Source: Tetmemena sp. SeJ-2015 (lineage: Eukaryota > Ciliophora > Spirotrichea > Sporadotrichida > Oxytrichidae). From it: a stretch of DNA of 64,000 nt. Positions 22,364-37,300 of the stretch are shown here, piece after piece. The notes below the pieces were generated by a model, which was not told the DNA's origin, did no database searches, and saw only the letters and a program-made list of their open reading frames with translations. Numbering within the stretch: the first letter of the stretch is position 1; the number at the start of each line of letters is the position of its first letter. The translations under genes were made by a program, and so were the position numbers. Where the stretch lies: assembly GCA_027382625.1 (NCBI GenBank), contig JAJKFJ010022749.1, forward strand, positions 1-64,000. The letters are read 5' to 3'.

Positions 22364-25300
22364 TCATTTTCGTAGGGCAGGGCCTCCGAAGGGATTGCCC
22401 TTGCCAAGTTAGTTGTTTACTGTCATGTTGTGCACCTCCTCTTCTTCTTTAAGATATCTCTTGAACTCAAGAAGTTTCTTATTCAGCATCTTGTAAATGT
22501 TAAGCTTCCTCTCAATCAATAAAGAAAGAGAAGATAAATATCGAAGTACAATAATAGTATTTTTAGATTATTTAGAATGATTTTGTCCATGGAATCAACA
22601 TAGTGTTCTATCTCGTAGTCATCGCTTTCTTGCACATAGCTAATTAATTCTCCCTCTTTTGTAAGCAGTTGAGCATTCTCCTTTATGATGTGCAGGTGCT
22701 AAGAAATCAACTCCTTTTTCCCTTTTTCCAATATTGTGTCCACTTTCTCTTGTAAATCGAGTAGTCCCTCATTCTTAAATTAATGGAATTAAAACCTAAG
22801 ATTCTTAAGGCCTAGACCATCATCGTCGTTGTTATTGGAAGCATTTTGAGATGGGTCTTGAGTTGGCAACTGCTAGTTCCTCCATCCACCAGGGTTCTGC
22901 TTCCCACTCAATCAGCAAAGTTAAGATTATTCTTGAAAATATGTCGATCTAAAAATTGAATGTTGACTTGAGATAGTTCCAATCTTACTGAGCTTTGGTC
23001 TTGAGTCTCTGCTGCGCTTGCAATTTTTCATCATCATCTCTGTCCATGCCGATATTATCTGAATCATCGCTATCATCATCTATGTCATCGTTCTCCCTCA
23101 CTTTTATATGATCCATTCGTAAGTTCTCAACTTCTCTCACAGCACTATGCACTCTCCGCTGCTACTGTTAGTTTTTGCATAAGAGGTTAAGCTACTCCAA
23201 CCCGAGGTATATTATTCTATTAGAGTGGAGGTCTTGAGGAAGGCTGCTGCTTTGCATTTGTAAGTGGCTCTCCCCATTGCTTCCTCGCAGGTTGTTGCAT
23301 TGCTAGTGAAGGCTGCTTCTGTTCTTCAATATAGCTCTTCATAAATTGATAGATTCATTATGTATACGCAATTAAGATATCTTGTTCACATTTTGAGAAG
23401 GGGGATGAATATTTGCTCTAGAGCCACTCTCCATGATGAATCTACCTGCATTGGCAAGTGCGCTAACTCCACCTGCACCCCCTTAACCTAGACCTCTCCT
23501 TGAGGGAGGGTCATTTCCTACAAAGGAGGAGGGTGGTCTCTACTACCCACCAATTGGTACTTGCTGCTATTGCTATCTTTGCTATTGCTATTGTATAAAC
23601 TGCTGCTACTTTAGGTCTTACTGCTCCCTTATTTTTTACTGTTACGCCTATTGTTACTACATTTACTGACTCAAAATGTCGTGGTTGCTATCTGCTCGAG
23701 GTTAACTCTTAGGAGGCATGGCGTTTTAAGCTGGCTGATGCTGCTGATTAGAGGCTGCTGGTAAGTTGCTTAGGTTATTAGCAAGTAGTTATTGCCCTCC
23801 TTCGCCTGGGTTTTCTTTCAATCTCGATCCAAGAAAAAAATTAAAAAGAGGAATGCAGAACAGAATCTGATAAGAAGAAGGTAGAGAATGATAACGATTA
23901 TTAATTAAGCATCTAATGGTGATAATTAATTATTAACTTAATGTATATTAAAGAGGGATTCCTTCTGAAGCAAAAATGATTGAGCTTTCAGAGGCACCTT
24001 CCGTAACTATTCCCACAATCCTTCTCTTTCAGTTTTCACTGAGCGCCGCAGGCAACTCAGAAGGCTGAGAGAAGAAAGGTTTGCAAAATTGAAAAAGTTG
24101 ATTAAATAGATATTGATTGCGAAAAAGCATTAGTACTGATTTGCTGCTGCTTTAATCAGCACTGAACAATCATTCAATTGAGAGTTTAGTTAAAGAATTT
24201 ATGTTCATTTATATTGAATAAAGTATGCTTAAACTATTTTGAGAGCAATGAAACTCTTGATTTCCTTTATGAGGATTTCGCATAAATTAAGATTCTACTT
24301 AAAGATATAGCATTTTTAAATGAGACAAGGGTCAACCTCTCTTCGCACATCTCCTTTCAAATTGAAGTTTGTTAAAGCCTTAATCATTAGTCTTATTTCT
24401 TGCTCAAAGTTCATTTTTCCATTTGGTTATTTTCAAACTTTCTAGAAAAGGGACCACTTAAATTTATCTCTTTCAATTTCCGCGCACGCTGTTAATTAGT
24501 TTAGAATATGGACTATCTTTTCATTTGCAAGTGGATTTAAATTCGGGCTACTGGAAGTCTAGTTATCTTTTCAGTCTAGCTATCCTCCTTGCTTCAAGCT
24601 CATTTCCTTCATTTAATATTTTGAGTAACCTTAAAAAGAAGTTTTGTTTGTGATTTCCTTGAGTACTTGACAGAATTTCTGTGTGAAACATCTGGCCTGC
24701 TAATGCGGGGGCTTATGATTAATTTACGGCCATAGAGCAATCATCAGCTTAACAATTAACTTTAGCCCCAGAAACTCAAACCTCCTATCATTCCATCCAC
24801 GAATTTAACCCTTAATCCCCCAAAAAATTTTTTTATTAACTTCTTGGGGTTTCTTCAAATTCGAAAAGGAAAATTTTTTGCCCTAAAGCAAAACTTGTGT
24901 GCATTTTAGTACGCTTGATTAAAGTGGCGCTCGAAATGAGAAGAGGCTGAAGATTAGTTAAAACTCCCTAAGCCTTGAGCGAGCTTTAGGATAAACCAAA
25001 ATATGAAGTGCTTCATTATTAATCCCCCTCCGATTTTAATAAAACTTTCTTAAAATTAAGTATAAAAAGTCTAAATTTGGTTCACTGTCCTCTCAAGAAA
25101 TAAACCGCGAGAAGTGTACAACTATAATATCAGTTAAGTAGCTCTAGAGAGAGTTTAAAAATTACTGTTTTTAATAAATGCATACTCGGATGTTCCAGCA
25201 GAGGGGGCATGGGCTGATAATTCATAGGTGAGTGTGTTATTTTCCCAGTACTGTAGCCAAGCATTCGGGCTATCATTGGTAATAAAAATCCATTTGCCCT

Positions 25301-34300: not shown

Positions 34301-37300
34301 ATTTCAAACTAATCGAGAAATAAGATAAACTCCTTCAAAAGGGTCTCAAGTAAAAGAAGCTCAACCGAATACAGCTTAAAGAGCAAACAGATTCACAAGA
34401 GATGAAGAGAAAAGAAGCAGACAGGAATGGAATGACTTTCGGAAATTTAAAAGATGAGATGATAATAGAGGCATGCGAACCTTCTTTCTATGATCTAAAG
34501 CAACTTGAGAACATAGAAAACTCCTCTCTTTATTCAAACAACAATAACAACGATATCTTAAACTCCATCAGCTCAGATCAATCTTTCATGCCCATAGGCT
34601 TGTCACTACTAAACGAGGCAGACAGTCAAACGTTAAAGGAGAGGTAGATGTAGACTATTTCAGACATCAAGCGTTAGTTCACTCTGCTTGGAGTGCCTCT
34701 GTTTGGAAATCTATTTCTCTAAGCAGGCAAATAAAGGGAACCCGAGTACAAGTCTAAAAGAGAAGAGTAGAAGCAGACTGCGGCTTTTGCAGACTCAATC
34801 TCCCAGACTTTAAATTGTTTGATTGCGCTTTTGAACTTGAATCTGAGCTTGAAAAGCGATAGAGAAAACGCAATTGCAAATGTTACTAGACTGAGGGGAG
34901 AGAACACAAATTTGCAACGCAGAATGGAGGATCTGAAAATGACTACAGTCAAAGAGCTAAACGAGAAAATTAAGTCACTCGAACTGGAAAGAGAGAAGTG
35001 GAGTTAAAGAGAAACAGGGGCGAAGGTGCAGGGTGAGATTAAAGTGAAGGAGAAGGGACTTGAAAAATCAAAGCTTGAGCAGAAAATTTCCTATCTCATA
35101 CATGACATCAATTAGATTGAGTTATCAATATGTGTCATTTCATATCGTTTTTAATCAAGAAACTGCAAAATGAAAAGCTGCAACTATAAGAAAAGGTAAA
35201 CAATTTAATAGATAGCAAAGGAGCAGCAGCTCAAACGAGTAATATAGAAATCAATAAACCTCTGAGAAACTCATCTTCGGCTTTTATGAAGGATCTACCT
35301 ACACAGCACTAGCTTAACAAAGATATAAATTATGAATGTTATTCACCTTTTTAAAGAGTTAGTTAGCATGATCCAATAAAATTACGATCTCAACGTGGAA
35401 ACCTTAAAGAGATAGCACGACTCTGAGGTTACTAGTTTTAGAGCTCAATTAACAGAGAGGGAGCAAGAAGTGGCAGAGCTAAAGCATACATGCCAAGTAT
35501 AGTTAGATTGTCTATCCTTGATGGAGTAGACCATGTCTAAGTATGACAAAGAGAAGCTCCAAGGCTCCCTTAAACTCTATGATGAATTAAATACTCAGAA
35601 GTACTGTTCTTACTTCTCAGACATCCTGGATAAGAAACTTGCCTAAAGAGTTCAAGCTTGCCACTCCACTCATTTTAATTATCGTTATTTATAATTAGAC
35701 TCATGGAGAAGAGGAGAAGACAGAAGCTCATGAGTAAGAGGAAGATGACTTAGAGATCTCTTAATAACAGAAAGAGTTAGTTATCTTTGAAAAGCAACGC
35801 TGGAGAAATCTATTCTAAAATAACTCTCAGGATGTATGAGAGATAGAGGTTCATTTATTTATTTATTTTACACCTTATCCAAAAGAAAAGTTTTTAATCT
35901 CGATGCATACCTTAAAGTATTGAGAGTGTGGTCAGCGCTTGAGCTTCCTGGAGAGACACATGCTATCATAATGATCCTCGTTCTCTCGGCATTCATCATG
36001 AAGGAGTCTCTTAGCACCATAGTCAGTTTACTCGCTCTGAAGGGTATGTGTACTTCAGAATTGTGCTTCCTCTGGTCTAAACTTCTGATGCACTCCTTAA
36101 GCGCTAGGAGACTTTTATTGATCTCTGCTCCTTCAAGTCTCCTTTATCTGTCATTACTCTAGCAGTCAGCTGCTCTTTCACTACCTGCTAAGTCTACTAA
36201 GTACAACTTGCTTATTGATAAATGAGAGATAGATGGATTTTGAAGAACTTGCCCATTATCTTGCCACCTGGGATTCCCTCCTTGATTTGAATTTAGCAAA
36301 TGGCGTGCGAACGAGAGGAAGTGTCATTTGATGCAGTCGCATGAGTGGTGCGCTCAGAATGCGCAAATTCTATCATGCTTATCATGTCAGTCTCTTATAG
36401 CAAACAAACACTTTGTATTATTTGAAGTCTCTATTTAAATGTCTCTGACTCAACTAGCTTCTCTTCAAGTCCTTAGATTTAAATTTTCTAGTTCTTGTCT
36501 TCAAGCACTGCCAGCTTTTGTCTTCCATTCAGTAAATCGAATAACTTGCCTCCGTAGATTTCAAAGAAAGAAATGTAGAACTGAGGATTCTTGTCAGCAT
36601 ATCAAAACAAGGATGTATAGGCAATGAGCATTAAATTGATTGATATTGAGTCTTGGAGAGGGCGTATATGTCTCTGATAGCAGCCTCATTGCTCCCTTTC
36701 ATAGTGAAAGTCTTTCCACTTCCAGTCTGTCCATAGGCGAAGCAAGTTACTATCCCCTTGTTGAAGGGCAAATGAATTGTATCCATACAAAGTTGAAGAT
36801 AGTTATTAGATATAATTGTGGGCTGAATAGCTGCTCTGTAGAGTTGAATTGTGTCTTGAGTTTCGCCAAAAGAATTGTCGAAAGTGAAATCGTTATTCTC
36901 TATAAACTTAGTGATACCATCCACTCTGAACTTGCACTCGTGAACTCTTATAATTGGATTTGCACAAGACACTGCATCTATCTCACCTGCTTGCTACTCT
37001 TTAGTGAATATAGGGCGCTTCCTAACACAAACACTGATCTCTAAATAAACATACTGTATTGCAAATTCACACTTAAATCTTCATGTTAACTGTGGAGGTA
37101 TGTGGTTAAGAGTCTCTTTGCGGGTTCAATCTTTGCTTCTATACCATGATATCAAAGTCAGCATCAACTTTGATCCCTTGAGCCTCATTCATGAGTTCCC
37201 TCTGCTTCTTATCGTTCCTCTACTGTTCTATCTTGACTCTTCTCTCTTCGCGCTGCTGTTTCATCTTTTCAATGTTCTCTAGGACTGTTGGTTTCCTGGC

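Follow-up and report, generated by a model that had tools for sequence, protein, structure and literature searches.

Loci nested within the internal eliminated sequences (IESs) of other loci are known genome-wide in the ciliate Oxytricha trifallax. According to the available sections of Braun et al. 2018 (PMC5940158), 1,301 of its 15,811 somatic chromosomes contain nested others and 1,847 are embedded only, and in the arrangement termed a Russian doll the pieces of one chromosome all lie inside an IES of another, with pointers of 2-20 bp. The excerpt available from Feng et al. 2022 (PMC9797194), who compared Oxytricha with Tetmemena, describes pointers spanning as many as two or three other loci, with whole non-scrambled loci embedded between the layers. 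B-type alternative processing, in which a macronuclear-destined segment (MDS) is nested within the IES of another chromosome, is described for other spirotrichs in the accessible part of PMC10901763, and that of PMC6765146 reports IES-containing circles of Oxytricha with a median of 616 bp, from a survey that by its authors' own account is subject to a library-size bias. Here we analyse 64,000 nucleotides from contig JAJKFJ010022749.1 of Tetmemena sp. SeJ-2015 (hereafter the window), in which a germline kinesin-13 gene is very probably split by a pointer-joined IES that carries two somatic genes.

Compared with the Oxytricha nested loci, as the available sections of PMC5940158 describe them, the kinesin locus has one layer, holds two genes, is non-scrambled, belongs to another genome and is known from germline sequence alone; its 9-bp pointer ATCGAGATT, joined in frame, falls within the Russian doll range. 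The bridging pointers quoted in the excerpt of PMC9797194 measure 18, 14 and 15 bp, and the maps given there rest on somatic genomes (one Tetmemena locus on PCR). The accessible part of PMC10901763 treats genome-wide somatic-germline pairs, whereas a single locus is treated here; the nesting of MDSs is alike. No report of a nested kinesin-13 locus was found in the limited collection of literature searched. It is a clear new example of a known nested arrangement, and the phenomenon itself was already known. Hence, that the same DNA is both discarded and kept is a known property, and the view of an earlier note on this DNA, that genes inside IESs are rare, is not supported. With this locus, the set of known nested loci gains a conserved cytoskeletal gene and a further germline assembly. 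Its compact, single-layer, non-scrambled form with a well-defined pointer makes the order of outer and inner excision simple to test; knowledge of nested loci is otherwise unchanged by it.

The assembly searched comprises 146.2 Mb in 5,213 contigs, and the window is part of contig C3385 (64,527 bp). For translation, TAA and TAG were taken to encode glutamine, and TGA alone to be a stop. The kinesin-13 features, all on the minus strand, are as follows.

37816..37861, minus strand: first coding piece of kinesin-13, with the ATG at 37,861
37725..37815, minus strand: GT-AG intron of 91 bp near the 5' end, starting GTATCA and ending TTGTAG
35896..37724, minus strand: N-terminal region and motor, in seven coding pieces with six excisions of 39-51 bp
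35896..35904, minus strand: 9-bp pointer ATCGAGATT, motor side
23820..35895, minus strand: predicted kinesin IES of 12,076 bp, one pointer copy included
23820..23828, minus strand: 9-bp pointer ATCGAGATT, stalk side
22364..23819, minus strand: stalk and C-terminal domain, with four excisions and a TGA stop ending at 22,364

Read from the ATG at 37,861 to the TGA ending at 22,364, the gene gives 938 aa after 12 removals, namely the GT-AG intron and eleven excisions flanked by direct repeats. As the earlier note had stated, motor coding ends and stalk coding resumes at a shared 9-bp repeat, ATCGAGATT, and joining there is in frame and yields a complete kinesin-13 with start and stop. The pointers of the N-terminal and motor excisions, with the length removed, are AATCA (44 bp), AGAT (40), ACAATT (39), ATAT (44), AGAGAC (51) and GCAAGTT (41), and those of the stalk are AATT (26), AGTGC (7), TTTTA (160) and ATT (62); the 7-bp AGTGC excision is doubtful and may be no IES. 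The six N-terminal and motor excisions were placed by homology, whereas in the linker, which is of low complexity, the joins are not unique and their placement is less secure.

The protein has a kinesin-13 motor with intact motifs and the C-terminal domain of the family. We take kinesin-13 to be the name of this family, which database sources give as kinesin family 2/24. The top-scoring homologue is from the spirotrich Protocruzia adhaerens (taxid 223996). Motor and C-terminal sequence occur in a single protein in 10 of the 10 homologues chosen for alignment, with P0061 lacking the last part. Among 120 listed homologues the motor was matched in 118 and the C-terminus in 110, counts that are biased by the use of the joined protein as query.

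The inner genes are flanked by two consecutive coding segments of the kinesin, 36,204-35,896 and 23,819-23,370. ATCGAGATT is present twice in the 64 kb, both times on the minus strand, where shuffles lead one to expect 0.61 copies; two or more copies were found in 12 shuffles, and the copy count alone is weak evidence. The nine bases ending at the last base of the motor were matched at 1 of 59,899 other minus-strand positions of the window, and this position is the stalk start. In a looser control, 9 or more bases were shared with the 61 nt around the motor end in 614 of 20,000 random 61-nt places, some of which overlap the site itself. Hence, the argument for the junction is carried by register and frame and not by the length of the repeat. 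In the stalk, ACTCAAGACC occurs as a 10-bp repeat (at about 23.0 and 22.86 kb) that resembles a pointer yet joins in the wrong frame; a short repeat is thus no proof by itself.

In a rival reading, the 12 kb would be a spliceosomal intron that holds nested genes in an otherwise ordinary genome. Genes within introns are known in animals, according to the available text of Braun et al. 2018 (PMC5940158), and this kinesin-13 does have one GT-AG intron. Nevertheless, wherever the 12,076-bp cut is set along its 9-bp repeat, GT-AG does not result, nor does it in any placement of the other ten repeat-flanked excisions, and we reject the intron, which is hardly credible.

Two other contigs, C3986 (window 27,919-53,738) and C313 (32,337-52,422), span the right junction. 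C3986 equals the window in every counted stretch of 33.8-38.0 kb, and C313 is therefore the sole independent contig there; overall it is 94% identical to the window. Where the pointer borders the kinesin, C313 differs from the window at 0 of 25 positions (from 35,896) and at 1 of 30, whereas immediately adjacent, on the IES side, it differs at 15 of 27 positions and has 3 inserted bases. The right boundary is thus sharp in the compared sequence, and the motor-side pointer is unchanged in the diverged contig. Along the motor-side kinesin, a comparison that took in five of the six N-terminal and motor excisions, 79 of 1,579 positions differ (five short IESs left out, the AATCA one included). The identification of 23,820-35,895 as an IES is thus supported by the in-frame pointer, the lack of splice sites, the divergence step and a style of excision shared with the rest of the gene. 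In the earlier note the IES reading is supported and the 12-kb stretch is real, but its bounds are corrected to those given here.

A broken gene, with a germline rearrangement having split the kinesin-13 and both halves being relics, is very improbable. Other kinesin-13 loci exist, one copy could thus be lost, and the best-conserved motor piece is only 61-66% shared with the nearest of them; against this, the pieces join in frame and encode a protein of full length whose motor motifs are intact, and the pointer is exactly kept in C313.

The IES contains two predicted genes on the plus strand, followed here by its remaining part.

26062..33655, plus strand: nested mS47-like gene of about 2,226 aa, with 19 predicted short excisions (7-104 bp) and a stop at 33,655; predicted 5' end uncertain
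33823..35839, plus strand: second nested gene, without a convincing family match, with a stop at 35,839; predicted 5' end and 35,125-35,361 uncertain
23829..26061, neither strand: IES stretch without detected coding on either strand, in a scan of limited sensitivity

The earlier note's mS47-like gene is real. Its protein matches Pfam ECH_2 (enoyl-CoA hydratase family) at E 2.8e-52, and its best solved relative is chain 6z1p_BI (1,451 residues) at E 6.6e-42 over residues 39-207. We take 6z1p to be the Tetrahymena mitoribosome. The protein has the enoyl-CoA hydratase/isomerase fold and the mitoribosomal relative expected of mS47, a HIBCH-like mitoribosomal protein. The last 533 residues of the model had no solved-structure match, and a homologue search with the whole model gave none at E 0.001.

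GT-AG was found in no placement of the 19 predicted excisions of this gene. C313 lacks exactly two of these, one of 48 bp at ACTTC and one of 20 bp at TTG. A third deletion, in C3986 (29,227-29,269), has the 43-bp length of the predicted excision 29,211-29,253 but lies 16 bp away from its position. Of the three deletions that coincide with predicted excisions, two therefore agree exactly with the model. Among the predicted excisions covered, 1 of 14 is missing from C3986 and 2 of 3 from C313. The contigs differ in their IES-like inserts (20-82 bp), each present in one and absent in another, at window 28,536-32,569 against C3986, and at 32,473-32,492 and 32,649-32,696 against C313; C3986 carries eight further inserts (23-82 bp) that are missing from the window.

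Substitutions in the mS47-like gene at codon positions 1/2/3 number 28/17/82 against C3986 (about 1,712 positions each) and 3/0/7 against C313 (about 400 each). For the second nested gene, C3986 is without any difference from the window and is hence uninformative on constraint; the counts against C313 are 18/9/36 (386 each), 7/1/9 (93 each) and 7/3/7 (45 each). The excess at third positions suggests protein-coding constraint in most of the compared nested stretches.

The second nested gene had been named SSX2IP-like in the earlier note, and this name is not retained. The joined model matched no Pfam family below 0.1, and none of SSX2IP/ADIP was among its matches up to E 10; no homologue was obtained at E 0.001, and no solved structure matched. 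That note's "two complete genes" stands as regards the stop codons, both of which lie inside the outer IES, whereas the 5' ends are unsettled.

Minus-strand coding fragments, also claimed for this interval, were not recovered. A codon-usage scan, for which 9.0 segments are expected by chance in the shuffled window, gave no minus-strand segment above 10 nats at 23,326-36,125, but likewise overlooks two pieces of the kinesin itself, 23,370-23,819 and 35,896-36,124. On either strand it gave none at 23,820-26,238, and again misses 23,370-23,819. Given that known kinesin pieces are missed, short coding pieces could escape, and minus-strand coding within the IES is rejected as far as the scan reaches.

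The following course would account for the locus. In the germline (micronuclear) nucleus, the 12,076-bp IES would part kinesin-13 between motor and stalk. As the somatic nucleus develops, motor and stalk would be joined at ATCGAGATT, with one copy kept and the 12 kb lost from the kinesin chromosome; that this join occurs we infer from the germline structure. The two inner genes, on the opposite strand, would be macronuclear-destined, excised, rid of the short IESs that they carry and maintained as small chromosomes apart from that of the kinesin, either one or two, and their retention in the soma is suggested by these IESs and by the codon-position bias. The rearrangement would be guided by RNA, by analogy with Oxytricha.

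Between the stop codon of the second nested gene and the kinesin pointer lie 56 bp (35,840-35,895), the last 27 bp of which are strongly diverged; hence, the inner chromosome would have a very short end or one that extends into the kinesin segment. With so small a gap, one cut could be shared by the outer and inner chromosomes, and removal of the 12-kb IES could itself release the precursor of the nested ones. We hold this to be unlikely. If true, the discarded piece would be an obligatory intermediate of the kept genes, and kinesin assembly would be coupled to them in a fixed order.

Several observations weigh against a kinesin-13 split by an IES that carries somatic genes. With up to 3 mismatches allowed, the kinesin sequence expected after joining has 0 matches in the assembly. 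The automatic gene model fell short of the full kinesin-13 and, in each half, placed some of the joins elsewhere; those used here were partly picked by eye against homologues. Some of the short kinesin IESs diverge no faster than coding sequence (4/40, 6/39, 11/41, 2/51 and 0/41 differences from C313 for five of them), and the final compared stretch of the second nested gene is without third-position excess. The contigs are also mixed for IES presence, which reflects either germline allele (IES) polymorphism or somatic reads in the assembly; the assembly may be a blend of somatic and germline reads. Finally, a search of the whole assembly found no contig besides the window's own for the left junction or for the 4 kb with which the interval begins, and C3986 and C313 both end within the mS47-like gene.

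These last points also favour an assembly chimera on the left, in which the stalk and the AT-rich left part would be misjoined to the nested genes within 23.8-26 kb, a region spanned by a single contig; the mixed IES presence is in line with it. A misjoin alone, on the other hand, would give no matching in-frame 9-bp repeat exactly at the stalk start, no alternative stalk was found for this motor, and the assembly contains the stalk DNA once. We consider a chimera quite improbable.

The stalk may also belong to another, orphan motor elsewhere. A kinesin protein search of the assembly gave at least 95 matches (90 of 178 candidates scored), and nine other places were read. Five other kinesin-13-like loci have their own C-terminal match 0.2-1.5 kb past the motor. 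This match is clear in C3003, C4137 and C248, and weak in C2076 (one of eight queries, and none in a second comparison) and in the near-identical contigs C4969 and C3295 (one of nine queries). C2956, C3909 and C3421, with motors 35-42% identical, are without a C-terminal match, and their status as kinesin-13 is unsettled. Such a possible motor without its own stalk lowers our confidence in the split by an IES very slightly. The single-copy stalk and the C-terminal matches of the five loci support the IES reading. C248 and C4137 match protein P0038 (eukprot 403357422), presumably from Oxytricha trifallax, at 72-91% over longer pieces.

Outside the kinesin locus, window 8,300-22,200 is AT-rich (21-29% GC in 12 of the 14 kilobases of 8,001-22,000) and contains direct repeats, each about 1 kb long, that have diverged from one another. 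Those at 9.4, 15.3 and 20.8 kb, among others, are 70-73% identical and look like a decayed tandem family. An inverted repeat pairs window 1,088-1,855 with 12,637-13,379 (about 790 aligned bases at 80% identity), and the end of C3986 consists of DNA resembling its neighbourhood (window 12,638-12,865 and 1,628-1,864). At window 52,978-53,847 there is a repeat of about 110 bp in three short copies, at a place where a rearrangement sets C3986 apart from the window. As for telomere-like sequence, among the matches listed for a 20-base C4A4 repeat, nine start at base 1 of their own contig, and interrupted C4A4 repeats are clustered at C2828:3805-4156.

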